Origin: Intrasporangium chromatireducens Q5-1
Lineage (GTDB): Bacteria > Actinomycetota > Actinomycetes > Actinomycetales > Dermatophilaceae
Reading direction: 5' to 3'
Assembly: GCF_000576575.1 (NCBI RefSeq)
Contig: NZ_AWQS01000004.1
Span: 1 to 63,658, forward strand
Length of the DNA stretch: 63,658 bases
A program made the translations under genes and the position numbers. The notes below the pieces were generated by a model. The model was not told the DNA's origin, did no database searches, and was given only the letters and a program-made list of their open reading frames with translations. The stretch's first letter is position 1, and each line of letters begins with the position of its first letter. Below are positions 33,996 through 61,350 of this stretch, one piece after another.

Positions 33996-34919
33996 ATGAC
34001 GCGCCCCACGTCAGTACAGATCCGGGAGGTCGGCCCGCGGGACGGCTTCCAGAACGAGCCCGAGAGCATCCCGACCGATGACAAGGTCCGCCTCATCAAC
34101 TCGCTCGGCCGGGCCGGCTTCAAGCGGATCGAGGTCGCCAGCTTCGTGCGGCCCGACGTGATCCCGCAGCTCGCCGACGGCGTCGAGGTGCTGAACCGCA
34201 TCGACGTGCCCGCCGACGTCAGGCTCATGGTGCTCGTGCCCAACAGCCGGGGTCTGGACAACGCCCTCAAGCAGCGCGACAAGTTCCACGAGGTCGCGAT
34301 CTTCGTCAGCGCGTCGGAGACCCACAACAAGAAGAACGTCAACCGCACGGTCGCCGAGAGCATGGCCGACAACGACGTCATCGCCAGGCGGATCGTCGCG
34401 GAGGGGCTCGACTGCGCGGCCGTCATCGCCACGTCGTTCGGCTGCCCCTACGAAGGCAAGGTCGAGATGACCCGCGTGCTCGACCTGGCCGAGCGCTTCG
34501 CCGAGGCCGGGGCCACCGAGCTCGGCTTCGGTGACACCACCGGCATGTGCAACCCGGCCTACGCCGGTGACTTCTTCCGAGCGGCGATCGAGCGGCTGCC
34601 GGGCGTGGAGATCACCGCGCACTTCCACAACACGCGCGGCCAGGGCCTCGCCAACGCCTATGCCGCGCTCGAGGCCGGGTGCGCCAGCTTCGAGTCGAGC
34701 TTCGGGGAGCTCGGCGGCTGCCCCGTGCCGGCCGGCTCCACCGGCAACATCGCCACCGAGGACCTCGTCAGCATGTTCCACGAGATGGGCGTGCAGACCG
34801 GCCTCGACCTCGAGGGCGTCATCGCGTCGGCGCGCGAGGCCCAGGCCGTCCTCGGGCGCAAGCTGACCAGCCACTCCATCATCGCCGGCGCCATCAACTG
34901 GGCGCCCAGCGCCTCCTGA
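33996..34919 (+). CDS. HMG-CoA lyase-like (retro-aldol/Claisen) enzyme
   Basis: A 307-residue TIM-barrel lyase of the HMGL family. REVGPRDGFQNE (metal and catalytic Arg/Asp) opens the barrel, GFGDTTGM and TAHFHNTRGQG give the metal-binding His residues, and FGELGGCPVPAGSTGN carries the catalytic Cys loop. HMGL splits a 3-hydroxy-3-methyl acyl-CoA into acetoacetate or an analogue plus acetyl-CoA. In a ring-cleavage operon this points to a substrate with a tertiary, methyl-branched carbon. ATG 33996 follows GGGGAGG; ATG 33966 overlaps the preceding gene. Confidence 0.85.
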   Translation: MTRPTSVQIREVGPRDGFQNEPESIPTDDKVRLINSLGRAGFKRIEVASFVRPDVIPQLADGVEVLNRIDVPADVRLMVLVPNSRGLDNALKQRDKFHEVAIFVSASETHNKKNVNRTVAESMADNDVIARRIVAEGLDCAAVIATSFGCPYEGKVEMTRVLDLAERFAEAGATELGFGDTTGMCNPAYAGDFFRAAIERLPGVEITAHFHNTRGQGLANAYAALEAGCASFESSFGELGGCPVPAGSTGNIATEDLVSMFHEMGVQTGLDLEGVIASAREAQAVLGRKLTSHSIIAGAINWAPSAS

Positions 34920-46057: not shown

Positions 46058-47143
46058 GTGGTCTGGGACTGGACTGCTGACTCCCTGCGGGCCCTCGAGG
46101 CATTCCTGGCGGAGCGCGGCGTCACTTCCGGACCGCTGACGACGAGGGCCATCGGCGACGGGCACTCGAACCTCACCTACCTCGTGTCGGACGGCACGCG
46201 GCAGGTGGTCGTCCGCCGGCCACCGCCCCCACCGGTGCCGCCCGGCGCGCACGACATGCTCCGGGAGGCCCGTCTCATCGCAGCGCTCGACGGCAGTGAC
46301 GTGCCGGTGGCGCAGGTGCTCGCCACGAGCGACGCGGGCGAGGTGCTCGATGTCGGCTTCTACGTCATGAGCTATGTCGCCGGGCCGGTCGTCACCACCA
46401 CGACCCCCGACGCCCTGGCGACGCCGGAGGACCGCCGCGCGATCGGGTTGGCGCTGGTGGACACGCTCGCCGCGCTGCACCAGGTCGACTGGCGCGCTGC
46501 GGGTCTCGGGGAGATGGGTCGGCCCGAGGGGTTCAACGCGCGACACCTCAGACGGATGGGCCGCTTGGTTGCTGACGAGGAGGGCCGTCCCCCAGCAGAG
46601 TTCGCGGATGTCGACGCCTGGCTCGCCGCGAGTATCCCGCCCGAGTCCGGCGCCGCGATCATCCACAACGACTACCGCCTCGGCAATGTCATCCTCGGCG
46701 CCGCCCCGCCGGGCCGGATCACCGCAGTCCTCGACTGGGAGCTCGCCACGATCGGGGACCCGCTCTTCGACCTCGGCTACTTCCTCGCGTCCTACCCGGT
46801 CCCTGGCGAGCCGCTGACACCCACGCAGGAGCTTGGGGTCGCGGTGCTCGAGGAGGGCTACCCCACGCGCGGCGAGCTGGCGGAGCGGTATGCCGCCGTC
46901 ACCGGCGCGGACCTGAGCAACCTCGGCTGGTACACGACGCTGGCGCTGTGGAAACTTGCCGTGCTGTACGAGTACGGCCGGCGCCGGGCCATCGAGGGCG
47001 TGGGTGACGAATACTACCGCGACCAGGCGCTCGTCGAGTCGTTCCTGGTCGCTGCGCGGACATCGGCGGGTCTCGTGCCCACCAGCATCATGACTGATAG
47101 CGCCCCGCTATCATGGGTGCATGAGGCAGGCACCGACCGCTGA
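46058..47143 (+). CDS. APH/ACAD10-type phosphotransferase family protein, paralogue
   Basis: A 361-residue kinase-fold protein. NLTYLVSDGTRQVVVRRPP is the nucleotide-binding part, IIHNDYRLGNVILG the catalytic loop and VLDWELATIGDPLFDLGYF the metal site, all intact and very close to the ACAD10/11 kinase domain. Mitochondrial relatives phosphorylate 4-hydroxyacyl-CoA before dehydrogenase-linked elimination. It follows the crotonase pair by three bases. The 3' end overlaps the toxin-antitoxin operator and start region by 23 bases. Confidence 0.8.
   Translation: MVWDWTADSLRALEAFLAERGVTSGPLTTRAIGDGHSNLTYLVSDGTRQVVVRRPPPPPVPPGAHDMLREARLIAALDGSDVPVAQVLATSDAGEVLDVGFYVMSYVAGPVVTTTTPDALATPEDRRAIGLALVDTLAALHQVDWRAAGLGEMGRPEGFNARHLRRMGRLVADEEGRPPAEFADVDAWLAASIPPESGAAIIHNDYRLGNVILGAAPPGRITAVLDWELATIGDPLFDLGYFLASYPVPGEPLTPTQELGVAVLEEGYPTRGELAERYAAVTGADLSNLGWYTTLALWKLAVLYEYGRRRAIEGVGDEYYRDQALVESFLVAARTSAGLVPTSIMTDSAPLSWVHEAGTDR
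47095..47113 (+). promoter_or_regulatory. Inverted repeat operator of the HTH-MNT/HEPN module
   Basis: TGATAGCG-CCC-CGCTATCA (8-base arms, 3-base spacer) ends seven bases before the HTH-MNT start codon. Its place and symmetry suit autorepression by the HTH domain of the antitoxin. Confidence 0.6.
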
Positions 47144-47947: not shown

Positions 47948-48808
47948 TCAAGCACGGTTGAGCTCTGCGTAGCGCTGGCGGGTGATGGGGGTCCACTCTG
48001 CGCGTAGCTGCTCGATCCGCCGGGCGACGCGCCGGCCGATCCAGTGGGGCAGCAGGGCTTCGGGCAGCTGGGGGTCCGTGCGCGGGAACTCCTGCCACTC
48101 GTTCATCGTCTGGATGTGGGTCAGGAGGATCTCCTCGGCCCCGACAGGCCGCAGGCGAGAGACCCGCTCGAGCACTTGGGCGTAGTGGTCCTGCAGGGCA
48201 TCGAGGTCCCAGCCGCGGGAGATGATCTCCGAGGTGGACAACCCGATCGACGCGACCGTACCGGTCAGTGACACTGTGTGCTCGACGAGGTCGAGCTCCT
48301 TGATGAGCCACGCCACCTCCTCCGCCCGCTCGACGTGTGGTGACAGCCAGAGACCCGGAGCCGGGTCGCCGAACCCGGCCCAGGTCAAGCCGGCATACAG
48401 GGGGCGGCGTGCCGCGCGGCGCGACTGGGGGATCGTCGGCATCACCGAGAGCCACCGGCCGTCCCAGTCCGTCACGGGACGGCTGAGGGAGTACACGCGG
48501 ACCGAACCTGTCACAAAGATGTCGATGATCTTCGGGGTGAGGGCCCAACTGACCTCGCGGCCATTGCGCCGGGCCTCGATCCAGTCGGATGCGGAGGCTC
48601 GCGCGATCGCCTGGCGTGCGGTCTGCTCCTCGAACCCGAGGCCGGTGAGGATGTGCACGAGGGTCGCGGTGCGCACGGTCTCGCCGGCCGGCCAGACCAG
48701 CTCGCCGAGGGCAGTGAACAGCAGCGACCGGGCGCTGCCCGGTGTCACGGATGCACTCTCGGCCCGGAAGCGCGCGACCTGCAAACCCGTTGCCACACGA
48801 GGTGTCAC
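47948..48808 (-). CDS. PaaX-family transcriptional regulator
   Basis: A 286-residue regulator with the PaaX layout: N-terminal winged helix (SARSLLFTALGELVWP, TGLGFEEQTARQAIARASA), a central Cas2-like domain (DGRWLSVMPTIPQ) and the C-terminal PaaX_C domain (RLRPVGAEEILLTHIQTMNEW). PaaX senses phenylacetyl-CoA; relatives sense other aryl- or cycloalkyl-CoA esters. GTG 48808 is chosen for its AAAGGG upstream. It is divergent from the AliB-like dehydrogenase, the likely target. Confidence 0.85.
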   Translation of the reverse strand: MTPRVATGLQVARFRAESASVTPGSARSLLFTALGELVWPAGETVRTATLVHILTGLGFEEQTARQAIARASASDWIEARRNGREVSWALTPKIIDIFVTGSVRVYSLSRPVTDWDGRWLSVMPTIPQSRRAARRPLYAGLTWAGFGDPAPGLWLSPHVERAEEVAWLIKELDLVEHTVSLTGTVASIGLSTSEIISRGWDLDALQDHYAQVLERVSRLRPVGAEEILLTHIQTMNEWQEFPRTDPQLPEALLPHWIGRRVARRIEQLRAEWTPITRQRYAELNRA

Positions 48809-48863
48809 ATGGAGCCCTTTCTCGGTCGTGTGGTGGCCACACCCGCCGTGCACGGGCACAATA

Positions 48864-48939: not shown

Positions 48940-50106
48940 ATGACGGCGTTCGGCCTCACCGAGGACCAGATTGCCCTGCGTGACGCGGTCCGCACGTTTG
49001 CCCAGGCGCAGGTGGCCCCGGGCTACCTCGACCGGGCGAGCAGGACGACCTTCCCGTGGGAGCTGCACCGGAGGCTCGGGGAGCTGGGGGTGCTCGGCAT
49101 GCTCGCGGGGCCCGAGCACAACCCGACCGGAACGGACGACTTCGTCGCGGCCGGGCTTGCCGTCGAGGAGTTGGCCTACGCCGACTTCAACGTGGCCAAT
49201 GCGGTGATCCCTGTGCTCCTCATGTCGTCGCTCATCGCGGCCCACGCCTCACCCGGCATCAAGGAGCGCTGGTTGCCGCCGCTCGTCGCCGGACAGACCT
49301 ACGTCGCGTTCGGGCTGACCGAGCCCCACTGCGGCTCGGACGCCACGGCGCTGCGCACGACCGCCGTGGCCGACGCGGACGGCTATCTGCTGACCGGTGA
49401 GAAGACCTCGGTGACGATGCTGGGAAATCCGGAGGCGATGATCGTCACCGCCCGCACGGTTCGGGATGGGGAACACCGCGGCGTGAGCACCTTCCTGGTG
49501 GACTTGGGCGCCGAGGGGATCGGCACGTCGGACATCCCCGACACGGGATTCCAGCCCATGGGTCGGGGAGTACTCCACCTCGATGGTGTTCGGGTGGCGG
49601 CGAGCGCCCTCATCGGGCCGGAGGGGTCGGCCTTCCGCAGCGTCCTCGGGGGGTTCGACTTCACCCGCCCGCTCCTTGCCCTGACCGGGATCGGGTGCGC
49701 ACAGGCGGCTCTCGACATCACCGCGACCTACGTGCGCGACCGGGAGGCCTTCGGAGCGCCGCTCTCGCGCTTCGAGGGGGTCTCCTTCCCCCTCGCCGAG
49801 CACTGCACCACCCTGGAAGCCGCCCGGCTGCTCTGCTACTCCGCGCTCTGGCGCCGCAACGAGGGGCTGCGCCACACCGCCGAGGCGGCGATGTCCAAGT
49901 GGTACGGCCCCCTCATGGCCAGCCAGGCGGTCAAGGACTGCCTTCTGCTTCACGGCAACTACGGTTACGCCCGCGAGTACGGCCTCGAGCAGCGATTGCG
50001 CGACGTCATGGCGGTCGAGATCGCCGACGGCACCGCACAGATCCAGAAGATCATCATTGCTCGTGAGCGGTACGGCGCCGAGTTCGTCCCCTATCGCAAG
50101 GGATAG
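48940..50106 (+). CDS. Acyl-CoA dehydrogenase, AliB/BadJ-like paralogue
   Basis: A 388-residue dehydrogenase paralogous to the one at 2822. FGLTEPHCGSDATALRTTA is the flavin loop; LLHGNYGYAREYGLEQRLRD the C-terminal helix. As in its paralogue, the residue before GT is Asp363 (IADGTAQIQK) and the isovaleryl-type Glu is absent (FDFTRPLLAL). ARTTFPWELHRRL-like and YADFNVANAV stretches resemble cyclohexanecarboxyl-CoA dehydrogenases. It probably introduces ring unsaturation under PaaX control. ATG 48940 follows AGAGGA. Confidence 0.85.
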   Translation: MTAFGLTEDQIALRDAVRTFAQAQVAPGYLDRASRTTFPWELHRRLGELGVLGMLAGPEHNPTGTDDFVAAGLAVEELAYADFNVANAVIPVLLMSSLIAAHASPGIKERWLPPLVAGQTYVAFGLTEPHCGSDATALRTTAVADADGYLLTGEKTSVTMLGNPEAMIVTARTVRDGEHRGVSTFLVDLGAEGIGTSDIPDTGFQPMGRGVLHLDGVRVAASALIGPEGSAFRSVLGGFDFTRPLLALTGIGCAQAALDITATYVRDREAFGAPLSRFEGVSFPLAEHCTTLEAARLLCYSALWRRNEGLRHTAEAAMSKWYGPLMASQAVKDCLLLHGNYGYAREYGLEQRLRDVMAVEIADGTAQIQKIIIARERYGAEFVPYRKG

Positions 50107-50118
50107 CGATGCGGTGGG

Positions 50119-50916
50119 TCAGGCCGCGGAGATGCCGCCGTTGACGCTGATCGCCTGACCGGTCAGCCGGGCAGCGCCCGGCCCGCCGAGGAAGACGATC
50201 AGCGCGGCCAGGTCGTCGGGCTCGGCCACCCCGAGGTGGGCCTGCTGGGCGGCCTTCTCGAAGAGAGCCTTGCTGAAGCCGTCCCGCAGGACGTTTTCGG
50301 CAGTCGGGGTCCCCGCGATGAGCGAGGGCGTCACGGCATTGACCCGGATACCGTTGCGCTTGCCCTCGATGGCGGCCACCCGCGAGAACATGACGATCGC
50401 GGCCATGGCAGCGCCGAGGACGCTCTCACCCGGCGTCGCCACCTTCGCCGCGTCGGAAGCGACGTTGACGATGCTGCCCCCACCCTGTGCCTGCATGATC
50501 GGCAGCACCGCTCGCGTCAGGTGCATGGGCGGCAGCGCCTGCCTGGTCAGGATGCCGGAGACGTCGGCCAGGGAAAGGCGGTGCAATAGTTCCGGCCGGT
50601 ACGTCGAGGTCATCGAGTTGACCAGCACGTCGATGGCGCCGAGAGCCCGGTATGCAGCGTCAACCGACGCCTCGACCTGCGCCGGGTCGTCGGCGTCTGT
50701 GCCGATGAAGTGGACCTGCGCTTGCGGACAGGCCGCCAGGACGGCTGCTCGCGCCGCCGCTCCCCGTTCGGGGCTGCGGGCCAGCAACGCGATCCGCCGG
50801 ACCCCGGCACGGACGAAGCCGAGTGCGCTGGCGAGGCCGACACCCGAGGTGCCGCCGGCCACGACGACACCGGCCTCTGAGTAGGCCCGCACGAGCGGCG
50901 ATTGCTGCGATGTCAC
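50119..50916 (-). CDS. SDR-family protein lacking the catalytic Tyr and Lys
   Basis: A 265-residue SDR-fold protein. The nucleotide loop VVVAGGTSGVGLASALG is good and the C-terminus LTGQAISVNGG normal, but the YxxxK site reads LGAAM (Leu167, Met171). The surrounding SDAAKVATPGESV and VMFSRVAAIE segments align with BadH-type SDRs, so it looks like a BadH relative that lost redox chemistry or uses other residues. GTG 50916 is chosen because TTGGAGG stands six bases upstream. It is convergent with the AliB-like gene and divergent from the ligase at 51070. Confidence 0.7.
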   Translation of the reverse strand: MTSQQSPLVRAYSEAGVVVAGGTSGVGLASALGFVRAGVRRIALLARSPERGAAARAAVLAACPQAQVHFIGTDADDPAQVEASVDAAYRALGAIDVLVNSMTSTYRPELLHRLSLADVSGILTRQALPPMHLTRAVLPIMQAQGGGSIVNVASDAAKVATPGESVLGAAMAAIVMFSRVAAIEGKRNGIRVNAVTPSLIAGTPTAENVLRDGFSKALFEKAAQQAHLGVAEPDDLAALIVFLGGPGAARLTGQAISVNGGISAA

Positions 50917-50987
50917 GAGGACCTCCAAACGGTGACGGGGACCTTGCCGGACCCTACATGTGAAGGGACTGAGTTTCTACAAACGTC

Positions 50988-51069: not shown

Positions 51070-52725
51070 ATGGCGTCGACATCCCTCCTCCAGACCTCCC
51101 ACTGGCCCGCTGAGCCAGGTGAGGTCCGTGACGTCACCGTGTGCGAGCTGCTTCGTCACGCAGCTGCAACCGTGCCCCACCGCATCGCCCTGGTCGACTG
51201 CGTCGAGGACCAGTCCGCCCGCACACAGTGGACCTATCGCGAGTTCGTGGCCGATGCAGAGCGGGTGGCCCGAGCCCTGCTCGAGCGCTTCGAGCCGGGC
51301 GACCGGATCGCGATCTGGGCGCCCAACAGCGCCGCCTGGATCATTGCCCAGCAGGCGATCAGCCTGGCCGGCATGGTCCTGGTAGCCCTCAACCCGGCCT
51401 ATCGGGCGCGCGAGGTCGGCTTCGTGCTCGCCCAGTCGACGGCCGCCGGGGTCTTCATCGTCGACGAGTTCCGCGGCTTCGACATGAGGGCGATGATCGA
51501 CGAGATCCGAGACGAACTGCCCGCGCTGCGCGAGGTGATCTCGTTCTCCGACTGGGACGCCTTCCTGGACACCAGTGACCCCGCGCGCGAACTGCCAGAG
51601 GTCGCACCGCATGACCTGATCCAGATCCAGTACACCTCCGGCACGACCGGCTTCCCCAAGGGAGCCATGCTGCATCACATGGGCCTGGTCAACGAGGCGA
51701 CCTTCGTCGCCGAGCGGGCCGGGATGTCCGACGGCGGCGTATACATCAACGCCATGCCGATGTACCACATCGGGGGTGGCGCGGTAACCTCCTTCGGGGC
51801 GTGGGCCAAGCGCGGCACCTTCGTGATCCTGCCCGGCTTCGACTCGAGCCACGTGCTCGAGGCGTTCGAGACCTACCGGGGCACGCACACCCTCGTCGTG
51901 CCGACGATGCTCATTGCGATGCTCGACCACCCGGACCGTGAGACCCGTGACCTGTCCAGCCTCCAGACGATCCTGAGCGGCGCCTCGGCGGTACCGGCCT
52001 CGCTGGTGCGCAAGACGATCCAGCTTCTCGACTGCCAGTTCAGCATCCTGTTCGGCCAGACCGAGTCGCATGGGGTCATCAGCCAGACGCGGGTGACCGA
52101 CGCTCCCGAGGACCAGGCCGACACGGTGGGCCAGCCGCTACCCCAGCTCGAGGTCAAGATCGGCGATGTTGCCACGGGTGAGCCCGTGCCCCTGGGCGAG
52201 GAGGGGGAGATCTGTGTCCGCGGGTACCAGACGATGCACGGCTACTACGAGATGCCCGCCGAGAGCGCTGCCGCCCTGGACGACGACGGCTGGCTGCACA
52301 TGGGCGACATCGGCTCGATGGACGAGCGCGGCTTCCTGCGGGTCAGCGGACGGGTCAAGGACACGATCATCCGTGGTGGCCTAAACCTCTACCCAGCCGA
52401 GATCGAGGCTGCGCTGCAGGATCATCCCGCTGTCGAGTACGCCGCTGTCATCGGCCTGCCCGACGAGAAATGGGGCGAGCAGGTTGCGGCTGTCATCACG
52501 GTCCGCGCGGGGTTCGAGGCGCCCAGCGTGGCTGAGCTCAGCGAGTTCCTGCACGGGCAGATCGCGGCGCACAAGGTCCCCTTGTACTGGACGGTCGTCG
52601 ACCACCTGCCGATGACCCCGTCCGGCAAGACCCAGAAGTTCGTCCTTCGCGAGGAGGCGGCCTCGGGCGAGCTGTCCTTCACGGAGCGGGAGACCGCCGC
52701 CTGGCGGGTGGGGGAGCGCGCCTGA
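51070..52725 (+). CDS. AMP-forming acyl-CoA ligase (FadD3/FadD17-like)
   Basis: A 551-residue ANL ligase: IQYTSGTTGFPKGAML near 187, FGQTESHGVISQT near 333, GYQTMHGYYEMPAESA, DDGWLHMGDIGSMDERGF near 415, RGGLNLYPAEIE and the lysine in PSGKTQKFVLR. This is the FadD branch that takes medium chain, ring or steroid-derived acids (NPAYRAREVGFVLAQS). ATG 51070 follows CAGGAG. It ends before a strong terminator and faces the dehydratase cluster, so it could activate the acid used by that cluster. Confidence 0.85.
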   Translation: MASTSLLQTSHWPAEPGEVRDVTVCELLRHAAATVPHRIALVDCVEDQSARTQWTYREFVADAERVARALLERFEPGDRIAIWAPNSAAWIIAQQAISLAGMVLVALNPAYRAREVGFVLAQSTAAGVFIVDEFRGFDMRAMIDEIRDELPALREVISFSDWDAFLDTSDPARELPEVAPHDLIQIQYTSGTTGFPKGAMLHHMGLVNEATFVAERAGMSDGGVYINAMPMYHIGGGAVTSFGAWAKRGTFVILPGFDSSHVLEAFETYRGTHTLVVPTMLIAMLDHPDRETRDLSSLQTILSGASAVPASLVRKTIQLLDCQFSILFGQTESHGVISQTRVTDAPEDQADTVGQPLPQLEVKIGDVATGEPVPLGEEGEICVRGYQTMHGYYEMPAESAAALDDDGWLHMGDIGSMDERGFLRVSGRVKDTIIRGGLNLYPAEIEAALQDHPAVEYAAVIGLPDEKWGEQVAAVITVRAGFEAPSVAELSEFLHGQIAAHKVPLYWTVVDHLPMTPSGKTQKFVLREEAASGELSFTERETAAWRVGERA

Positions 52726-52837: not shown

Positions 52838-53782
52838 TCAGGGCCGCCGGTCGGCTGCGATCGACGCGGTCCACAGCTCGACGTCGATGGGCTGGTACTT
52901 GGCCCGTCCGAGGCTGCACGTCGAGCAATCGCGCCCGTTGGGCTGCTGGCCGGTGTGGACGTGCTCACGGTCGACGGCTTGGCCGATGACCCTGGTCTCG
53001 CCCTGCAGCGACTCGAGACCGAGCAGCGCGGCGCCGTAGGCCCCGCTGATCTGCGGTTCCGCCGGTACGATCACAGGTGCCCGGAGCGACTCGGCGAGGA
53101 AGTGCACGGCCGCCCGGCTGCGCGCCACCCCGCCGGTCATGACGACGGGAGCCGCCCGGCCCACCCGGGAGACGAGACCGAGGGTGCGTGCGGAGACCGC
53201 GCGGTGCACCGAGGCAGCGATGTCTGTTGGCTCCTCGCCCTCGGCGAGCAGCGAGATGATCTCCGTCTCGGCGAACGTGGCACACATGCTGCTCACCTCG
53301 AGGTCCTGACCACCGGCCAGCGCGAGGTCATCGAGGTCGTCGAGCCGGCACTCGAGGGCACGTGCCAGCACCTCGAAGAACCGGCCGGTGCCGCTCGCAC
53401 ACCGGTCATTCATGGCGAAGTCGTCGACGAGTCCGACCTCGTCCACCCGGATCGCCTTGCTGTCCTGGCCCCCGATGTCGATGACCAGGGCCGCGCCCGG
53501 GCACATCGCGGCCACACCCCTCGCATGGCAGGTGATCTCCGTGAAGGTGCGGTCGACGTCGGGAACGAGGCGCCGGCCGTAGCCGGTCGCGATCACCTGG
53601 CCGAGGTCGCCCCGCTCGAGCCCGGCATCGTCGAGGACCGCGTCGATAGCGGCGGCGACACCGCGACGGCTGACCGCGCCCATCTGGACGACGCGATGCG
53701 CGACGATCCCGCCGGCCTCGTCGACGACGACGGCCTTCGCGGTCGTAGAGCCGAGGTCGACTCCCATCGTGCGCAGTGCCAT
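52838..53782 (-). CDS. 2-hydroxyacyl-CoA dehydratase/benzoyl-CoA reductase activase ATPase (HgdC/BcrA-D family)
   Basis: A 314-residue ATPase of the ASKHA fold. GVDLGSTTAKAVVVD is the phosphate-1 loop, VIDIGGQDSKAIR phosphate-2, VVMTGGVARS the adenosine loop. Cys128 (NDRCASGTGRF) and Cys167 (SSMCATFAETE) match the two cysteines through which the homodimer holds a single [4Fe-4S] cluster in HgdC. ATP hydrolysis drives one low-potential electron into the partner enzyme. A C-terminal extension adds CSTC. A single activase gene suggests the homodimeric dehydratase type rather than BcrAD. ATG 53782 follows AAGGAG. The partner subunits lie directly upstream. Confidence 0.9.
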   Translation of the reverse strand: MALRTMGVDLGSTTAKAVVVDEAGGIVAHRVVQMGAVSRRGVAAAIDAVLDDAGLERGDLGQVIATGYGRRLVPDVDRTFTEITCHARGVAAMCPGAALVIDIGGQDSKAIRVDEVGLVDDFAMNDRCASGTGRFFEVLARALECRLDDLDDLALAGGQDLEVSSMCATFAETEIISLLAEGEEPTDIAASVHRAVSARTLGLVSRVGRAAPVVMTGGVARSRAAVHFLAESLRAPVIVPAEPQISGAYGAALLGLESLQGETRVIGQAVDREHVHTGQQPNGRDCSTCSLGRAKYQPIDVELWTASIAADRRP

Positions 53783-53799
53783 GACCCGCTCCTTCGGTC

Positions 53800-55140
53800 T
53801 CAGACGCCGGCCTTGGCCCGGCGCACGTCGATGCTCTCGAGCATGGCCACCAGGCGACTCTCGAGGATGTCGTCCTTGTAGAACGAGGCGTCGGCGACGT
53901 CGCCCTCGAAGAACATCGCAGGGATGCCGAGGTGCTCGCGTGCGGTCGACGCGAGCATCGTCTGCGGATTGGTGAAGGCCCGGCAGGTCCGGGTCGAATG
54001 GAAGACGAGCCCGTCGATCTCGAAGCGCTCGCAGTCACGCAGCGTCAGGTAGTTCAGCGTCTTGAGGCTGTGGTTGATCGGGCAGAGCAGATAGTGCTGG
54101 GCCATGCCACGCAACGGGTCCTCGGGATCGATGAGCTGCGGCTCCTGCCAGAACGACGAGTGGGTGTACCGGCCGGCGATGACGGCCGCGTCGTACTCGG
54201 CGAAGCGCTTGGCCAGCCAGCCGAGCTTGTTCCAGTTCATGATGCCGTCGAAGTAGAGCCGGTAGCGCTCGTTCTCCAGAGCGGGCACGCCGGCGTCGAC
54301 CCGGGCCTGGATCTCGTCCCGCACGGAGGCGAAGTAGTCGACCAGGGCCTGGTCACCGGGCAGGAAGTTGATGTGCGCGATGCTGGCCACCCAGTCCCAG
54401 TAGGTGGCAGGCGTCGGCTTCCGCTCGCACAGCGCCATACCTTCGAGGCGCAGCTCGGAAGCGCGGCGGATGTACGACATGCTCTCGGAGAGGGCGTCCC
54501 AGTCGAAGGGGCGTCCGGTCTGGGCTTCGATGAAGGTGACGAGCTCGCGCAGCTGCCCGACGACGTAGTCGGTCGCCTCGTCCCACTCCTGACCAGCCAT
54601 GTAGGTCGAGTCGGGTCGGTTACCCCAGAGGAACGGGATCGAGACGTTGAAGATGGGGATTGACCTGCCGAAGACCCGGTAGGTCATCTCGTCCCACTGC
54701 TGGCCCGTGCTGCAGCCGGAGTAGGCGTTGACGAAGAAGTCGGGCTTGGGCAGCTTGCTGGCCAGCTCCTGCTGGTCGAGCGCGTCGACGACGCCGGTCT
54801 CGGAGCCCGGCGCCGGTCCGCCGCCGTTGCTGAGGACTGCGCAGCCGAGGTGGGTGCGCGAGTAGGAGCAGAGCTCGTTGATGTAGCCGTACTCCGCGCC
54901 CGCGAGCTGGGCCGGGCCCTCCAGGTGCTGGGCGGCGAGCCGGGCCGAGAAGGCCTCACCATGGCACCACTCGAGCCCGGCCGCCTGGAAGATCGGGTTG
55001 AGGGCGGAGCCGTTGTACCACACGACGTGCTTGCCCCGCTCCCGAGCGGTGAAGATGTTGTCCCAGTAGTCCGCGATCATCTGGCCGCCCGCGCGGGTGG
55101 TCTGCATCCGGGTGACGGTGCTGCCAGTCTGCGTCGTCAT
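53800..55140 (-). CDS. 2-hydroxyacyl-CoA dehydratase/benzoyl-CoA reductase-type subunit (HgdA/BcrB-like)
   Basis: A 446-residue subunit of the HgdA/B, FldB/C, BcrB/C family. The N-terminal half has HVVWYNGSALNPIFQAAGLE, INELCSYSRTHLGC (Cys91, Cys100) and NAYSGCSTG (Cys143); the C-terminal half has GLVFHSTRTCRAFT. Three cysteines in comparable places bind the double-cubane or [4Fe-4S] cluster that receives the activase electron. ATG 55140 follows GGAG; the frame continues 40 codons upstream without family features. It is 17 bases from the activase and 31 bases from the other subunit. Substrate unknown. Confidence 0.85.
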   Translation of the reverse strand: MTTQTGSTVTRMQTTRAGGQMIADYWDNIFTARERGKHVVWYNGSALNPIFQAAGLEWCHGEAFSARLAAQHLEGPAQLAGAEYGYINELCSYSRTHLGCAVLSNGGGPAPGSETGVVDALDQQELASKLPKPDFFVNAYSGCSTGQQWDEMTYRVFGRSIPIFNVSIPFLWGNRPDSTYMAGQEWDEATDYVVGQLRELVTFIEAQTGRPFDWDALSESMSYIRRASELRLEGMALCERKPTPATYWDWVASIAHINFLPGDQALVDYFASVRDEIQARVDAGVPALENERYRLYFDGIMNWNKLGWLAKRFAEYDAAVIAGRYTHSSFWQEPQLIDPEDPLRGMAQHYLLCPINHSLKTLNYLTLRDCERFEIDGLVFHSTRTCRAFTNPQTMLASTAREHLGIPAMFFEGDVADASFYKDDILESRLVAMLESIDVRRAKAGV

Positions 55141-55171
55141 TGCTGCGCTCCGTGGTGTCTCGGTGGGATGG

Positions 55172-56332
55172 TTAGCTGGCCGCGACCGCGGCCCGCCGCG
55201 AGATGCGCTCGACGAGCGCCTCCACCCGGGTCCGGAGGGTCTCCATGGGCAGGCCCGCATGCTCGGTCTCGACGAGCAGGTAGGGGATCTCGCGGGCCTC
55301 CAGCGCCTTTCGGAGCTCCGGGTAGAGCAGCATGTGGGGCTCGCAGAACTTGGCCATCAGGATCACCACGCCGTCGGCGCCGCTCTCGCTGACCGCCTTC
55401 GTCAGGTAGGTGTCCCAGTCGGCGTTGTGCTGGACGCGGGTCGGGCAGGGGACGTTGACGTTACGGTCGAAGTACCACTGGCTCAGGGCGGCGACCGGCT
55501 CGAGGTCTTCGCGCACGTCCGTCGTGATGTAGCGGCGGCCGTGGTAGAGGTCGTCGTCGACGATCTCTGCTCCGCAGTCCTCGAACAGCTCGAGCAGCGC
55601 CTGCTTGGGTGCGTGGCAGAAGTGGCCGGACAGGTGCAGGCGAACCCGCGCGTGGGGATCGTGGGACTCGATGCCGTCGGAGAGCAGCTGCTCGAGGAGG
55701 GCGATGTGCTCGGCCTTGTCCATCACCATCGAGGACTTGACGAGGTTCTGCATGGCCTTGGAGGAGAGGTGGACCCGGCCCTCGCGCCGCGCGTCGAAGA
55801 CGGCCCGGAGCAGCGCCCGGTCGCGGTTGTACAGCCGGATGCTCTCGGCGAGCCGGCCATGGTCCAGGGGAACGCCGGTGCTGCGTTCCACCTCGGCGAC
55901 GATGTGGTCGAGCTCCCCGCGAACCCTGGCAGGCGTGGACGGCTCGCTCATCGACGCGATGAACTGTCCGAAGAAGATGGGCGTGTGGGGCTGCTTGAAG
56001 CGCATCACGTCTGCGGCCCCGAGGAGCTGGACGCAATGGTCCGCGAGGAAGAACGCGTCGTAGATCTTGAGCCGGCCCTTGGCCGCCTGGTCGGCGAGGT
56101 TGCGGGTGTAGCCGCAGTAGAACTCGGCGAGGATGACGCGTCCCTCGGTGTCCGGCTCGTTGTTCTCTTGGATCACCACGGGGAGGAACCCGGCGGCGTG
56201 CAGCAGCTCCTCCGGGAAGTTCATCGGCAGGACCCCGGCCACCTTCCGGTCGGGGTGGGTCCGCTTCCATTCGACGACGTACCGGTCCGGATCCGCGGCC
56301 ACCTCGGCGAGCCGGTCGAGGATTGCGTTCAT
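55172..56332 (-). CDS. 2-hydroxyacyl-CoA dehydratase/benzoyl-CoA reductase-type subunit (HgdB/BcrC-like)
   Basis: A 386-residue subunit of the same family. VLPMNFPEELLHAAGFLPV is the standard opening, FYCGYTRNLADQAAKG holds Cys73, ADHCVQLL Cys100, and LMAKFCEPHMLLYPEL Cys330; these are the family cluster ligands. The C-terminal LVETEHAGLPMETLRTRVEA matches the typical E-x10-LRTRxEA end. Together with the next two genes it forms a complete ATP-driven two-component enzyme that could dehydrate a 2-hydroxyacyl-CoA or reduce an aryl-CoA. ATG 56332 follows AGAGGA. It has its own promoter at 56365-56393. Confidence 0.85.
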   Translation of the reverse strand: MNAILDRLAEVAADPDRYVVEWKRTHPDRKVAGVLPMNFPEELLHAAGFLPVVIQENNEPDTEGRVILAEFYCGYTRNLADQAAKGRLKIYDAFFLADHCVQLLGAADVMRFKQPHTPIFFGQFIASMSEPSTPARVRGELDHIVAEVERSTGVPLDHGRLAESIRLYNRDRALLRAVFDARREGRVHLSSKAMQNLVKSSMVMDKAEHIALLEQLLSDGIESHDPHARVRLHLSGHFCHAPKQALLELFEDCGAEIVDDDLYHGRRYITTDVREDLEPVAALSQWYFDRNVNVPCPTRVQHNADWDTYLTKAVSESGADGVVILMAKFCEPHMLLYPELRKALEAREIPYLLVETEHAGLPMETLRTRVEALVERISRRAAVAAS

Positions 56333-56463: not shown

Positions 56464-57345
56464 TCAGGGCGCGTAGCCAGTGCCCTCGAGCACGCTCGGT
56501 GGCTTGGCCAGGTGGAAACCACGGAAGGGCTCGGTGTTGTCAGATCCGCACAACGGCCAGCCGCCACGCCAGTTCGGTGTGCCGCCGTCGATGCGCAGGC
56601 AGGACCCGGTGATGTAGGCGGCGGCTGGGGAGAGCAGGTAGACGATGCCTGCCGAGATCTCGGCCTCGGTCCCGAACCGTCGCAGCGGGATGACCGGCAC
56701 GGCCTGCTCGCGGAAGTAGGCCCGGTCCTGCTCCGTGTAGGTGTCGAACCCGCTGGAGGCGATGCCGCCCGGCGCGAGCGCGTTGACCCGGATGCCGTAC
56801 TCGGCCCACTCGCACGCGGCTGTCTCGGTCAGCGTCCACATCCCGCCCCGGGCCGCTCCTGAGTGACCCATGCCCGGCCAGCCGTGCCACATGTCGGCGA
56901 CGATGTTGACGATTGCTCCGCCGTGCTCGGCCATCCACTGGTTGACGGTCTCGCGCATCATGATGAAGCCACCGGTGAGGTTGTTGCGCACGACCGCCTC
57001 GAACCCCTTGGTGCTGATGTCCCTCAACGGCGACTTGTACTGTCCCCCGGCGTTGTTGACGAGCCCGTGGATCGCGCCGTGTTCCTCGATGACGCGCGAC
57101 ACGGTGTCGCTGACGGCTGCCTCGTCGCGGATGTCGCAGACGAGCGCCGAGGCTGAGCCACCGTCGGCTCGGATCTCGTCGACGACGGCATCCAGCTTGT
57201 CCCGGGTCCGTCCGGTGATGACGACTGTCGCGCCGAGGTGGGTGAGCTCGTGGGCGGCGCAGCGTCCGAATCCGCTGCCGCCGCCTGTGACGATGATGGT
57301 CTGGCCCGTGAACAGCCCCGGCGCATAGATCGACTGGTATGGCAT
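56464..57345 (-). CDS. SDR, 2,4-dienoyl-CoA-reductase-like, with Lys to Arg change
   Basis: A 293-residue SDR with IIVTGGGSGFGRCAAHELTH and LVNNAGGQYKSPLRDIS. Instead of YxxxK it has GHSGAARGGM, resembling peroxisomal 2,4-dienoyl-CoA reductase (HAGSAKAAV) but with Arg in place of Lys. TETAACEWAEYGIRVNALAP also fits that branch. It has an unusual C-terminal tail of about 40 residues rich in Trp, Gly and Pro. It lies between the dehydratase subunits and the AttH-like gene, three bases from the latter. It could reduce a dienoyl-CoA formed by the dehydratase/reductase system. Confidence 0.7.
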   Translation of the reverse strand: MPYQSIYAPGLFTGQTIIVTGGGSGFGRCAAHELTHLGATVVITGRTRDKLDAVVDEIRADGGSASALVCDIRDEAAVSDTVSRVIEEHGAIHGLVNNAGGQYKSPLRDISTKGFEAVVRNNLTGGFIMMRETVNQWMAEHGGAIVNIVADMWHGWPGMGHSGAARGGMWTLTETAACEWAEYGIRVNALAPGGIASSGFDTYTEQDRAYFREQAVPVIPLRRFGTEAEISAGIVYLLSPAAAYITGSCLRIDGGTPNWRGGWPLCGSDNTEPFRGFHLAKPPSVLEGTGYAP

Positions 57346-58402: not shown

Positions 58403-59299
58403 TCAGACACCCCGTTGGGCCTTGCTCGCCGCAGTCGCGGCCTTGCTGCGCTCCTTGGCCTGGGCCCAGTCCTCGGCCGTCATCGACGTGAGGCCGGCGA
58501 AGGTGCCGGGTCCGGCGAGCATCTGTCCGCCGTCCATCGCGATGGTCTGCCCGGTGAGGTAGTCGCAGGCGTCCGAGAGCAGGAAGATCGTCAGGTTGGC
58601 CAGCTCCTCGATCGTGCCCATCCGGCCGGCGGGCACCTGATCGGCCTGCGTGGCGCCGACGGAGCTCTTGTCGGTCGGGTTGAGCATCTCCCACGCATAG
58701 TCGGTGGGGATCGGGCCCGGAGCCAGGGCGTTGAGCCGGATGCCGTACTTGGCCCACTCGACGGCGAGCGACATGGTCATGGCGTGGACGGCCGCCTTGC
58801 CCATCGCGGACGGCACGACGAAGGCCGAGCCGGTCCAGACCCACGTCGTCAGCGTCGAGAGCACGACACCCTTGTCGCCACCGGCGATCCAGCGCCTGCC
58901 GGCGGCGTGGGTGGTGTTGAAGGAGCCGTTCATGACGGTTGACGAGACGGCCTCGAAGCCACGTGGGCTGAGCGTCTCGGTGGGGGCGATGAAGTTGGCG
59001 GCGGCGTTGTTGATCACGCCGGTCAGGGGGCCGTGGAGAGTCCAGATCTCGTCCATGGCGGCGTCGACCATGTCCGGCTGGCGCACGTCGACGGCCTGGA
59101 AGTGGACAGAGCCGGGCCGGCTCGCCGACGCCTCGGCCGCGGCCTCCTCGAGCACGGCCGGGCGCCGTCCCCAGAGGTGGACCTCGGCGCCGTGCTCGAC
59201 GAGGTGCCGCGCGACACCGCGGCCGAGGCCGGTGCCGCCGCCGGTGATCAGGATCCGCTTGCCGGCGAGTGTGTCGGGGCGGAAGGGGGAGGTGGTCAT
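58403..59299 (-). CDS. 2,4-dienoyl-CoA reductase (NADPH), DECR/FadH-SDR type
   Basis: A 298-residue SDR. FVVPSAMGKAAVHAMTMSLA, EWAKYGIRLNALAPGPIPTD, GRMGTIEELANLTIFLLSDA and a C-terminal extension containing LTSMTAEDWAQAKER match mitochondrial-type 2,4-dienoyl-CoA reductase step by step; the catalytic Lys is present and the classical YxxxK Tyr is Ser, as in that family. It reduces 2,4-dienoyl-CoA to 3-enoyl-CoA with NADPH. Beside an aryl-CoA-reductase-type enzyme it could reduce a cyclic dienoyl-CoA. ATG 59299 follows GAGGA. Confidence 0.75.
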   Translation of the reverse strand: MTTSPFRPDTLAGKRILITGGGTGLGRGVARHLVEHGAEVHLWGRRPAVLEEAAAEASASRPGSVHFQAVDVRQPDMVDAAMDEIWTLHGPLTGVINNAAANFIAPTETLSPRGFEAVSSTVMNGSFNTTHAAGRRWIAGGDKGVVLSTLTTWVWTGSAFVVPSAMGKAAVHAMTMSLAVEWAKYGIRLNALAPGPIPTDYAWEMLNPTDKSSVGATQADQVPAGRMGTIEELANLTIFLLSDACDYLTGQTIAMDGGQMLAGPGTFAGLTSMTAEDWAQAKERSKAATAASKAQRGV

Positions 59300-59331
59300 G
59301 CGACGGTCCTCTCGTGGGATGGCCTGCCCGG

Positions 59332-60468
59332 TCAGAGACCGAGGTTCTTGCTGATGATCTCGCGCTGGATCTCGTTGGTGCCGCCGTAGATGGGCGGTGC
59401 CAGGGCTTTGCGGACCTGTTCCTCCATGCCGTACTCGCGGGCGTAGCCGTAGCCGCCCATCAGTTGCATGGCCTCGAGGGCGGTGGCCTTGGCGAGCTCG
59501 GTGCACTTGAGCTTGGCCATCGACGATTCGGTCGAGAGGTTGGCCTCGTCGCCGGCGTCGATGCCCGAGGCGATGTCGTAGACGAAGGAGCGGCTGGCTG
59601 CGATCTCGGTGGCGAGGTTGGCGATCCGGTGCCGGACTGCCTGGAAGCTGCTGATGGTCCGGCCGAACTGCTCCCGCTCCTTGACGTAGGCGATCACGTC
59701 GTCGAGGGACCGCTCCGCTGCCCCAAGGGACATCGCGGCGATGATCAGGCGCTCGACCGAGAGGCCCCGCATCAGGTGCTTCCATGCGCGGTCGGGCTCG
59801 CCGACGACGGCCGAGGCCGGGACCTCGACGTTGGTGAAGAAGAGGTCGTTGACGGTCCTGGCCTCCATCGTCTCGATGCCGCGGATCTCGAGACCGTCGA
59901 CGTTGGTCGGGACCATGAAGAGCGTGAGCCCTTGGTGTTTCGTCCCGGACGCGTCGGTTCGTGCGAGCAGGAGGATGTTCTCGGCGACGTGGGCCGCCGA
60001 GCACCAGGTCTTCTGGCCGTTGATGACGTAGTGGTCGTCAACACGCTGCGCCTTGATCCGCACCCCGCCCAGGTCGGAGCCCGCGCCCGGCTCGCTGAGC
60101 GAGATCGCCTCGAGCTTGCCCGCAGCCATGTTCGCAACGATGGTGCGCTTCTGCTCATCCGTCCCGTAGCGCAGGTAGCTCTGGGCAGCGGTCAGGCCGG
60201 TCGAGTAGGCGGTGATCGGGGCCAGCCCTCGCGAGGTCTCCTCGAGGAAGATGACCTCCTCGACCATCCCGGCGCCGCCTCCTCCGTACTGCTCGGGAAG
60301 GGAGACCGCGAGCCAGCCGAGGCCAGCCAGCTTCTCCAGAATGACGGGGCTGTTGGCGAGCGTGCCGTTCTCGGTGAGGGCGTCTCGCTGCTGGTGGGTC
60401 CTGCAGTGGCTGTCGCAGAAGTCGCGAACGGCCGCCGCGAACTCCTGCTGCTCGTCGGTGAACCGCAT
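59332..60468 (-). CDS. Acyl-CoA dehydrogenase of the dehydratase cluster
   Basis: A 378-residue dehydrogenase: LSEPGAGSDLGGVRIKA, VINGQKTWCSAAHVAENIL, QLMGGYGYAREYGMEEQVRK and the ending IYGGTNEIQREIISKNLGL. Gly before GT indicates that the base is the Glu in LSVERLIIAA (isovaleryl-type). It has a normal bacterial FadE length. It is 32 bases from the dienoyl-CoA reductase gene and likely supplies or uses the same enoyl-CoA. The ATG at 60468 has only a weak ribosome site. Confidence 0.85.
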   Translation of the reverse strand: MRFTDEQQEFAAAVRDFCDSHCRTHQQRDALTENGTLANSPVILEKLAGLGWLAVSLPEQYGGGGAGMVEEVIFLEETSRGLAPITAYSTGLTAAQSYLRYGTDEQKRTIVANMAAGKLEAISLSEPGAGSDLGGVRIKAQRVDDHYVINGQKTWCSAAHVAENILLLARTDASGTKHQGLTLFMVPTNVDGLEIRGIETMEARTVNDLFFTNVEVPASAVVGEPDRAWKHLMRGLSVERLIIAAMSLGAAERSLDDVIAYVKEREQFGRTISSFQAVRHRIANLATEIAASRSFVYDIASGIDAGDEANLSTESSMAKLKCTELAKATALEAMQLMGGYGYAREYGMEEQVRKALAPPIYGGTNEIQREIISKNLGL

Positions 60469-60555: not shown

Positions 60556-61350
60556 TCAGTTGCCGCGGAAGCTGGCGAAGTCAGGCTGCCGCTTCTCGTT
60601 GAAGGCGGTGATGCCCTCCTTGGCCTCGCCGGTCTCGCCGAACATCTTGAGGGTCGTCATGGCCATGTTGCCGATCGCCAGGAACTGCTCCGTGTCGGTG
60701 TTGAAGGACTGCTTCAGCACCTTGATCGCGGTCGGCGAGAACTGGTTCATCTGGTCGGCCCAGGCGCGGACCTCCGCCTTGAGCTGGCCGGCTGGGACGA
60801 CCTTGTTGACCAGGCCCCAGTCGAGGGCCTCCTGGGCGCTCAGCCGGCGCAGCATGAACCAGATCTCCCGGGCCCGCTTCTCGCCGACCACGCGGGCCAG
60901 GTAGCCCGAGCCCAGCCCGGCGTCGAAGGAGCCGACGCGAGGGCCGTTCTGGCCGAACGTGGCCGTGTCGGCCGCGATGGTGAGATCGGCCAGCACGTGC
61001 AGCACGTGGCCGCCGCCGATCGCGATGCCGTTGACGGCGGCGATGACCGGCTTCGGCACGTCGCGCATGACCCGGTGGAGGGCCTCGATCTCGAAGAGGC
61101 CGCTGTAGGACGGCCCGTAGTCACCTGTCTCGTTGCGCTGCTTCTGGTCGCCGCCGGAGCAGAACGCCTTGTCGCCGGCGCCGGTGAGGCAGATGACGCC
61201 GACCTCGGGGCTTCCCCAGGCACGCTTGAAGGCGAGCACGAGCTCGTCGACCGTCTGCGCCCGGAAGGCGTTGTAGCGCTCGGGGCGGTTGATGGTGATC
61301 GTGGCGAGGCCGCCCTCGACCTCGTAGGTGATATCCGTGAACTCCGTCAT
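60556..61350 (-). CDS. BadI-like 2-ketocyclohexanecarboxyl-CoA hydrolase homologue (second copy)
   Basis: A 264-residue crotonase-fold protein. [53 protein letters not shown] and RVVGEKRAREIWFML compare better with Rhodopseudomonas BadI (VVGEKKAREIWYM) than with MenB. The predicted step is hydrolytic opening of a 2-ketocyclohexane carboxyl-CoA ring. Its presence at the head of the cluster that contains the dehydratase/aryl-CoA-reductase-type enzyme ties that system to ring cleavage. It is divergent from the broken ligase, with two GntR-type boxes between. Confidence 0.75.
   Translation of the reverse strand: MTEFTDITYEVEGGLATITINRPERYNAFRAQTVDELVLAFKRAWGSPEVGVICLTGAGDKAFCSGGDQKQRNETGDYGPSYSGLFEIEALHRVMRDVPKPVIAAVNGIAIGGGHVLHVLADLTIAADTATFGQNGPRVGSFDAGLGSGYLARVVGEKRAREIWFMLRRLSAQEALDWGLVNKVVPAGQLKAEVRAWADQMNQFSPTAIKVLKQSFNTDTEQFLAIGNMAMTTLKMFGETGEAKEGITAFNEKRQPDFASFRGN

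Follow-up and report, generated by a model that had tools for sequence, protein, structure and literature searches.

A lineage of the HGD-D/activase superfamily, separate by sequence and probably acting on cyclic acyl-CoA, in an actinobacterial catabolic island

INTRODUCTION

Enzymes of the HGD-D/activase superfamily are known as oxygen-sensitive radical catalysts of anaerobes. HgdC-HgdAB, HadI-HadBC and FldI-FldBC each consist of one activase and two subunits, and the (R)-2-hydroxyisocaproyl-CoA dehydratase structures 3o3m and 4eht presumably derive from Clostridioides difficile. For the reductases BzdNOPQ and MbdONPQ the downstream chemistry is of the BadI type, as is proposed for the island described here. 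This island lies in a 63,658-nucleotide stretch of Intrasporangium chromatireducens Q5-1, called the window below.

RESULTS

Three genes of one superfamily

A first-pass annotation of the window proposed an ATP-driven system of the HGD/BCR superfamily in an actinobacterial catabolic island, with an activase carrying both cluster cysteines (128 and 167) and two catalytic-type subunits with conserved cysteines, contiguous on one strand. Coordinates, Pfam scores above curated cut-offs and alignments of relatives bear this out, and the three genes lie in tandem at exactly the positions first given:

52838..53782, minus strand: ATP-dependent activase (HgdC/HadI-like), 314 aa, ligands C128 and C167, C-terminal extension with C286
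53800..55140, minus strand: alpha-type (HadB/BzdO-side) catalytic subunit, 446 aa, ATG at 55140, ligands C91/C143/C386
55172..56332, minus strand: beta-type (HadC/BzdN-side) subunit, 386 aa, ATG at 56332, ligands C73/C100/C330

Spacings are 17 bases between activase and alpha and 31 bases between alpha and beta, and a 13-pair hairpin at 52751-52779 separates the convergent activase and acyl-CoA ligase genes. The promoter of its own that had been claimed for the system did not appear in a sigma-70 scan; the 131-base gap upstream of 56332 has room for one.

The activase matches PF01869 (BcrAD_BadFG; 1.5e-57, 195.6 bits, curated cut-off 31.5), passes TIGR00241 (231 bits, cut-off 125) and matches the HadI structure 4eht at 7.7e-61. 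Both subunits match PF06050 (HGD-D; curated cut-off 28.4), alpha at 1.4e-46 (160 bits) and beta at 2e-63 (215.5 bits); Pfam was scored on open frames, which for both subunits extend upstream beyond their ATGs. Among relatives, where a few rows may be one gene retrieved twice with different ends, activase C128, C167 and C286 are conserved in all 73 distinct rows, alpha C143 and C386 and beta C100 and C330 in 87 of 87, and alpha C91 and beta C73 in 86 of 87, the sole miss being a gap in each case. The three-cysteine columns of both subunits also occur in HadBC, MbdON and BzdNO; alpha C353 and C238 and activase C286 are invariant cysteines specific to the present clade. Active-site letters were rejected as a marker of chemistry: Glu at alpha 62 is common to HadB, MbdO and BzdO, and the alpha G44 column, with Gly both here and in MbdO and Ser in HadB and BzdO, does not sort dehydratases from reductases.

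Fold, family scores and phylogeny

The predicted alpha structure (pLDDT 89.6) is nearest to HadB (3o3m_A, Z 45.0), against 41.0 (8s02_A, BzdO) and 39.0 for reductases. The beta model (pLDDT 93.4) is nearest to BzdN (8s02_B, Z 44.9), ahead of HadC (3o3m_D, Z 42.9). Both subunits thus have the fold of class I benzoyl-CoA reductases (BzdO Z 41.0, BzdN Z 44.9), which is common to HadBC and hence not diagnostic. No chain outside the superfamily exceeded Z 10.4 among the matches listed (Foldseek best 1000, at most 50 entries).

Equivalog scores are low throughout: 126 bits for the HadB model NF052455 (cut-off 750), 130 bits for the HadC model NF052456 (cut-off 700), and 69-124 bits for the benzoyl-CoA reductase models TIGR02260/02263/03190/03191 (cut-offs 421-487). 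Alpha scores highest with HadB (126 bits), then BcrB (92) and BzdO (69); for beta, HadC (130) and BcrC (124) are nearly level. In trees with few, long-branched reference rows (the program warned of this), in which HgdAB, LcdAB and FldBC were not included under those names, alpha and beta each form a monophyletic clade of their own (support 100/100 and 100/99) outside HadBC, BzdNO and MbdON. Neither subunit was placed inside a known clade among the references tested, a placement that the first-pass annotation had named as evidence against it. By sequence, the three genes stand apart as a lineage of their own within the HGD-D/activase superfamily, and no description of it was found in the open-access literature searched.

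Distribution

A genome scan gave at least 78 loci among the best 80 of 96 matches, and therefore sets a minimum for the distribution, with a bias towards relatives above about 48%. Carriers in this set include Rhodococcus, Nocardia, Gordonia, Amycolatopsis, Nocardioides, Sphingopyxis, Paracoccus, Mesorhizobium, Zhongshania and others, soil and water genera that we take to be mostly aerobic or denitrifying; the closest relative among the matches listed is in Kribbia dieselivorans (90%). Five plasmids are among the carriers; match positions are nearly identical in two of them, both Sphingopyxis records. In several genomes the system is present in two or three sets, a multiplicity that a single dehydration does not explain. 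Aromatoleum diolicum has, besides this system, two true BzdNO pairs that pass their own equivalog cut-offs. Base composition was uninformative as a sign of transfer (68.1-70.1% G+C in window blocks, 68.0-71.5% in six other genome stretches).

Partner genes and linkage to ring cleavage

The following partners accompany the system in the window; family counts are over 82 loci, with one record counted twice, some loci cut by contig ends and some partners missed by the simple GC-frame gene caller:

32728..33966, plus strand: acetyl-CoA hydrolase/transferase relative, lower pathway (tblastn with an R. ruber plasmid protein, 75.8% over 413 residues)
33942..34919, plus strand: HMG-CoA-lyase-type enzyme, lower pathway (PRK05692 329 bits, above cut-off 246)
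43169..44368, plus strand: alpha-methylacyl-CoA-racemase-like CaiB-family protein (8rmw 377 bits, against at most 147 for CoA-transferases)
46058..47143, plus strand: APH-fold kinase, possible hydroxyacyl-CoA kinase (PF01636 7.8e-46)
47948..48859, minus strand: PaaX-type repressor (PF07848/PF20803/PF08223; TIGR02277 106.5 bits, below cut-off 264.6; 32/82 loci)
48940..50106, plus strand: acyl-CoA dehydrogenase nearest cyclohexanecarboxyl-CoA dehydrogenase, AliB (TIGR03207 349 bits, below cut-off 575; 17/82 loci)
50119..50928, minus strand: SDR dehydrogenase (SDR_e), the commonest partner (family in 60/82 loci, 59 at 38% or more)
51070..52725, plus strand: acyl-CoA ligase (LIGe), likely maker of the CoA ester (AMP-binding 4.7e-89; family in 49/82 loci)
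56464..57345, minus strand: 2,4-dienoyl-CoA-reductase-like SDR (PRK07677 199.5 bits, below cut-off 318)
58403..59331, minus strand: 2,4-dienoyl-CoA-reductase-like SDR, start approximate (PRK07677 225.7 bits, below cut-off 318; the match is residues 248-497 of the longer ORF 58403-60004)
59332..60468, minus strand: acyl-CoA dehydrogenase adjoining the BadI-like gene (PF00441 5.2e-48; 9/82 loci, beside BadI in several)
60556..61350, minus strand: candidate BadI/MrcE-type ring-cleaving 2-oxocycloalkanecarboxyl-CoA hydrolase (TIGR03210 badI 317 bits, below cut-off 468; PRK07396 333 bits, below cut-off 380; MenB models also below cut-off)

Across the loci, SDR_e, the CoA ligase, the PaaX-type regulator and the racemase-like CaiB protein are the partners that recur. 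The BadI-like and dienoyl-CoA-reductase-like neighbours proposed earlier hold at family level, with both kinds under the NCBIfam equivalog cut-offs.

The link to BadI relatives extends to other actinobacteria. Of the 29 actinobacterial carriers tested, 28 have a close BadI relative, whereas among 293 class-sample genomes not known as carriers 3 do; 18 of the 296 class-sample genomes were screened for the system itself. This comparison draws on 40 carrier genomes selected by the analyst from the scan loci, and carriers are related, so that Fisher values overstate independence. Controls were also searched less deeply (at most 7 or 8 candidates scored per genome, whereas in carriers all were scored, or as many as 65), and their counts could be low, with a 70% relative judged still likely to rank near the top. 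HGD genes were mapped in 10 genomes: in 7 the BadI relative lies within 50 kb on the HGD contig, and in 3 on other contigs. The ring pathway does not require the system, since three comparison genomes have close BadI and HMG-CoA-lyase relatives but lack the system.

An SDR_e homologue at E<=1e-60 occurs in 4 of 296 class-sample genomes, three of which (source genome included) carry the system and one does not. The APH-fold kinase has a match of at least 58% in 28 of 29 actinobacterial carriers, counted among carriers only. HMG-CoA-lyase-type matches of at least 71% occur in 21 of the 29; at E<=1e-90 the enzyme is found in the source genome and 4 of 295 other class-sample genomes, and in none of 11 proteobacterial carriers tested. 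The racemase-like protein keeps its His and Asp columns, which we take to be the racemase catalytic dyad, in 34 of 34 rows. An HGD-linked CaiB of the HadA/FldA CoA-transferase type would have been strong support for a dehydratase; that identity was rejected, the proteins being racemase-like (445 bits, against at most 114 for CoA-transferases).

DISCUSSION

As the first-pass annotation had guessed, a cyclic acyl-CoA is the probable substrate of the system. Of the two reactions offered there, reduction and dehydration, which sequence alone does not tell apart, we lean to the second: a 2-hydroxy alicyclic acyl-CoA would be dehydrated to a cyclohexene-carboxyl-CoA. Ring reduction is the less probable course. 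According to this model, the ligase would convert the acid to its CoA ester, a homodimeric activase would use ATP hydrolysis to drive a single electron onto the [4Fe-4S] cluster of the alpha-beta pair, the electron would be recycled, and the ring would then be opened by a hydratase, an SDR and the BadI-like hydrolase. As a whole, the reading that a separate lineage serves a dehydration step while alicyclic and probably terpenoid-like carboxylic acids are broken down aerobically is tentative, and we give it somewhat less than an even chance. The conserved ligands argue for it, as do the co-occurring BadI relatives, often mapped within 50 kb, and the adjoining AliB-like dehydrogenase.

The analysis demonstrates homology, ligands, fold, clade and the link to genes of ring cleavage; from there we infer dehydration over reduction, the kind of substrate and function in air. 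A single activase with two subunits is the dehydratase arrangement, alpha is nearest HadB in both fold and NCBIfam score, and the low electron cost would suit an aerobe. A benzoyl-CoA-reductase-like enzyme would instead use ATP to add two electrons to an aromatic or dienoyl cyclic acyl-CoA, and AliB/BadI-type enzymes would open the resulting cyclohexene-carboxyl-CoA. The BadI, AliB-like and dienoyl-CoA-reductase-like neighbours would fit this reaction, as would the BzdN-like beta fold and carriage by genera that we take to be denitrifiers. We nevertheless hold it unlikely: there is one activase gene, against two activase-type subunits in MbdONPQ (9gai chains C and D), and A. diolicum has true BzdNO besides, which makes it improbable that the clade supplies benzoyl-CoA reductase there. 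Moreover, ferredoxin-type ORFs with coding-like composition occur in only 3 of 82 loci (a weak control, since 1 of 2 BzdNO loci matched, through a 914-aa ORF), and aerobes would be expected to handle aromatic rings by oxygenases rather than at high ATP cost. The beta fold and the close HadC and BcrC scores of beta sit less easily with dehydration.

Two further reactions were weighed. Acyclic or side-chain 2-hydroxyacyl-CoA, for example 2-hydroxyisobutyryl-CoA going to methacrylyl-CoA after ring opening of 8-hydroxylated p-menthanes, would suit the HMG-CoA-lyase-type lower pathway of the actinobacterial carriers and a racemase-like protein for 2-methyl-branched acyl-CoA. The CoA ligase and AliB-like dehydrogenase beside the module point instead to an early step, and the proteobacterial carriers tested had no such lyase at the threshold used, which makes this distinctly improbable. 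In a vinylogous dehydratase or dehydroxylase, removal of the gamma-hydroxyl from a cyclic 4-hydroxy-2-enoyl-CoA by the same radical chemistry would supply dienoyl-CoA to the pair of 2,4-dienoyl-CoA-reductase-like SDRs that lie upstream in the same orientation, and the APH-type kinase may reflect a recurring need for hydroxyl removal. SDR_f-like families occur in only 10 of 82 and 7 of 82 loci, however, and we know of no superfamily enzyme that removes a gamma-hydroxyl in this way; we rate this vinylogous reaction as the least probable.

For the favoured dehydration of a cyclic 2-hydroxyacyl-CoA, no candidate 2-hydroxy acid substrate was identified. An alpha-tertiary hydroxy acid would leave the SDR partner unexplained, and also the racemase-like protein, since it has no alpha hydrogen to epimerise. 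The system and the APH kinase, the latter removing a second, side-chain hydroxyl, might together open tertiary terpenoid alcohols of the 1,8-cineole/terpin type to mineralisation by soil bacteria, with alpha C353 and C238 and activase C286 as part of the adaptation; this is a speculative proposal that we think improbable as stated. More generally, a conserved lineage in genera such as Rhodococcus, Gordonia, Nocardia and Sphingopyxis, accompanied by partners and regulators that recur, would put ATP-activated ketyl-radical chemistry in aerobic catabolism too and would fill a gap in the breakdown of alicyclic or terpenoid acids. The carriers would offer tractable aerobic hosts for asking how such an enzyme survives air.

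Comparison with known systems

One activase gene beside two subunits had been annotated as matching no classical system; it is the ordinary dehydratase architecture, and the unusual feature is the genomic context, not the gene set. The locus shares with HadI-HadBC the activase, the alpha and beta HGD-D subunits and the cluster ligands, but identity is about 23-24% in structural alignments, the clade is separate and its three additional cysteines are its own. HadI-HadBC belongs to amino-acid fermentation, whereas the present context is ring catabolism in genera that we take to be aerobic; a fermentation dehydratase was rejected on context and clade. BzdNOPQ and MbdONPQ belong to the same superfamily with similar folds (Z 39-45), but identity is 19-24%, scores are far under the equivalog cut-offs, and the window has one activase-type gene where class I benzoyl-CoA reductases have two different ones; on scores and activase count a true benzoyl-CoA reductase was rejected.

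Table 1 for the monoterpene island of Castellaniella defragrans 65Phen (PMC4109377) shares with our island, by name, a BadI-type hydrolase (MrcE), dienoyl-CoA-reductase-like SDRs, acyl-CoA dehydrogenases, a tyrosine-phosphatase-like gene, an acetyl-CoA hydrolase/transferase and a LuxR regulator. Unlike the present island, that table lists no HGD-D or activase gene, on which ground limonene or phellandrene was rejected as substrate. Limonene dehydrogenase (ctmAB) was not found among the window ORFs scanned. The word 'dehydratase' is absent from the main text on the bad-ali cyclohexanecarboxylate pathway of Aromatoleum sp. CIB (PMC9795900). That pathway has AliA/AliB/BadH/BadI-type logic in common with our locus, and the same paper proposes aerobic bad-ali versions for Rhodococcus and Cupriavidus.

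Gene organization and phylogenetic position

The coordinates and strand that the first-pass annotation gave for the activase and its two HGD-D subunits were borne out by our analysis:

56332-55172, minus strand: beta-type HGD-D subunit, 386 aa (Pfam 2e-63)
55140-53800, minus strand: alpha-type HGD-D subunit, 446 aa (Pfam 1.4e-46)
53782-52838, minus strand: activase, 314 aa (Pfam 1.5e-57)

Down the minus strand, gaps of 31 bases (beta-alpha) and 17 bases (alpha-activase) separate the genes, and between the activase gene and a convergent CoA ligase gene there is a 13-pair hairpin. The same annotation had given the genes their own promoter, for which a sigma-70 scan provided no confirmation.

Alignment to HadBC (2-hydroxyisocaproyl-CoA dehydratase), BzdNO and MbdON (benzoyl-CoA and 3-methylbenzoyl-CoA reductases) placed the cluster ligands at alpha C91/C143/C386 and beta C73/C100/C330, and in each subunit these are conserved in 86/87, 87/87 and 87/87 distinct rows of relatives, respectively. 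The activase carries cluster cysteines C128/C167, conserved in 73/73 distinct rows. Residues specific to the clade of the window proteins and their close relatives include alpha C353 (87/87 rows), alpha C238 (86/87) and activase C286 (73/73 within the clade, 2/6 outside).

All scores against the HadB/C, BcrB/C and BzdN/O equivalog models of NCBIfam were far under cut-off. As references, the IQ-TREE analyses used HadBC, MbdON, HadBC-like pairs from actinobacteria and genuine BzdNO rows from Aromatoleum diolicum, of which the alpha tree had two and the beta tree one. The window sequences and their relatives formed a single clade, comprising 53 of 70 rows in the alpha tree (support 100/100, stem 3.58) and 51 of 63 in the beta tree (support 100/99, stem 1.9). 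Hence the phylogeny proposed in the first-pass annotation sets both subunits apart from HadBC, MbdON and BzdNO, in trees from which HgdAB, LcdAB and FldBC are absent under those names. With few reference rows, on long branches, we claim no sister relations.

Distribution

A tblastn search of plasmids found close relatives (alpha-subunit identity 49-73%) in Rhodococcus ruber, Rhodobacteraceae QY30, Sphingopyxis macrogoltabida (two records) and Azoarcus KH32C. A single scan across 84,980 species genomes yielded at least 78 loci at 48-90% identity, taken from the best 80 of 96 matches. Among the matches listed, actinobacterial loci occur in Rhodococcus, Nocardia, Gordonia, Amycolatopsis, Pseudonocardia, Saccharopolyspora, Nocardioides, Citricoccus and Brevibacterium, further loci in Sphingopyxis, Novosphingobium, Paracoccus, Mesorhizobium, Rhodoferax, Solimonas, Zhongshania, A. 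diolicum and others, and the closest named relative is Kribbia dieselivorans (90%). Most of these genera are known as aerobic or denitrifying. Laboratory strains of Rhodococcus jostii and R. opacus are among those with the cluster. Two or three sets per genome occur in, among others, R. jostii, Nocardia miyunensis, Citricoccus, QY30 and an uncultured Burkholderiales.

Of 186 genomes from the window's family, two have the system: that of the window itself and another, probably Kribbia, at 90%. A further match in the family reaches only 25% identity. The system is absent from the one other same-genus genome listed, and 297 genomes of the order and 396 of the phylum contained no further clade member, other matches reaching at most 34%. 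Gammaproteobacterial rows are nested among actinobacterial rows in the tree, and horizontal spread likely lies behind this patchy distribution.

More distant HGD-D genes were also seen. A plasmid of Rhizobium leguminosarum ATCC 14479 (locus L147, 9914-15342) has a pair accompanied by two activases, with two-component regulators, rhodanese and sulfate-permease genes nearby. On Novosphingobium sp. ES2-1 plasmid p1 (locus L148, 9833-11134), a lone HGD-D gene amid TRAP-transporter and CoA-transferase genes groups with one member of a further R. jostii pair (L145), far from the window clade.

Partner genes and ring cleavage

Over 82 loci, the alpha, beta and activase families occur in 76, 73 and 62, an SDR family (window 50119-50928) in 60, a CoA ligase family (51070-52725) in 49, and PaaX regulator and CaiB families in 32 each. 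At E<=1e-60 the SDR was found in 4 of the 296 genomes of the class sample (the window's class, window genome included), three with the system and one without. The CaiB protein, whose gene adjoins the beta gene in R. ruber, is racemase-like (445 bits for the R. ruber copy, 377 for the window copy; CoA-transferases at most 147) and keeps a His/Asp dyad, which we take to be catalytic, in 34/34 rows; these scores and the dyad rule out a HadA-type CoA-transferase.

A relative of the window's BadI-like hydrolase was present at 54% or above in 40/40 tested genomes with the system, and at 74-88% in 28 of the 29 actinobacterial ones, the exception being Prauserella (62%). In the class sample, for which fewer candidates per genome were scored, 4 of the 295 other genomes reached 70%, one of them carrying the system, and 3/293 did so once the three genomes known to carry the system were set aside. 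The 3 non-carrier genomes that reached 70% also have an HMG-CoA-lyase relative, which shows that the system is not a prerequisite for the ring pathway. This lyase (71-88%) occurs in 21/29 actinobacterial and 0/11 proteobacterial carriers, and in the class sample in the window genome and 4 of the other 295. An APH-type kinase relative (at least 58%) occurs in 28/29 actinobacterial carriers, a count made among carriers only.

In 7 of 10 position-mapped genomes the hydrolase and the system share a contig within 50 kb (9-14 kb in A. diolicum, Mesorhizobium and Solimonas), and in 3 they lie on different contigs. BadI homologues were found on 5/5 plasmids bearing the beta gene vs 35/72,556 plasmids at the same threshold. 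The R. ruber plasmid additionally has P450, ferredoxin, and alcohol and aldehyde dehydrogenase genes, and that of Sphingopyxis has alkane monooxygenase, P450 and BadI-like genes and a MaoC / CoA-ester lyase / acyl-CoA dehydrogenase row. Taken together, the methyl-oxidising genes, the CoA ligase, the AliB-like dehydrogenase and the ring hydrolase suggest a ring carboxylic acid that derives from an alicyclic compound with a methyl group.

A second BadI/MenB-family hydrolase (window 35724-36581) is 52% identical to the gene at 60556, and many carrier genomes likewise have a second relative at ~50%, a hint that ring or C-C cleavage happens twice in the pathway. The window also has an HTH-nucleotidyltransferase (MNT-like) and HepT-like pair of toxin-antitoxin type within the catabolic island (47121-47914), an Rv3169-family protein (57349-58410; NF053593, 186 bits, cut-off 150) found in 7/82 loci, and an IS630-like transposase (62865-63656) running into the right contig end, where the assembly probably breaks.

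Possible reaction

In this family the activase passes one high-energy electron to the enzyme, which turns the thioester into a ketyl radical anion. The family is known to proceed from there in two ways: dehydratases eliminate the alpha-hydroxyl and recycle the electron; reductases perform a two-electron ring reduction and spend ATP on each electron. Our tentative preference, held at somewhat below even confidence for the statement as a whole, is that the system would dehydrate its substrate to a cyclohexene-carboxyl-CoA. Dehydration is favoured by the single activase, the limited energy that an aerobe would spend on the step, the presence of true BzdNO alongside the system in A. diolicum, and the score and fold of the alpha subunit, whose confident AlphaFold2 model (pLDDT 89.6) matched HadB at Z 45.0 (rmsd 2.2, 396 residues), BzdO at 41.0 and MbdO at 39.0 in a fold search. 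However, the beta model (pLDDT 93.4) leans to the reductase side, with BzdN at Z 44.9, HadC at 42.9 and MbdN at 41.5, and dehydration leaves the racemase and the multiple sets unexplained. We are much surer that the window system is a separate superfamily lineage tied to ring catabolism than of the dehydration statement as a whole. In a search of an open-access library, in which one Coriobacteriia paper was listed, no account of a system of this kind in aerobes came up, and it is within that scope that we call the system undescribed.

Comparison with the Castellaniella monoterpene island

A tyrosine-phosphatase-like gene (PF13350) lies at window 10433-11200; we know of no catabolic role for it. 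Similarly named genes occur on the Sphingopyxis plasmid and in the Castellaniella monoterpene island (PMC4109377). By name, the window and the island have in common this gene, a BadI-type hydrolase, SDRs that resemble dienoyl-CoA reductase, a LuxR regulator and an acetyl-CoA hydrolase/transferase. In annotation names only, the Sphingopyxis MaoC / CoA-ester lyase / acyl-CoA dehydrogenase row has the order of three Castellaniella island genes (PMC4109377).
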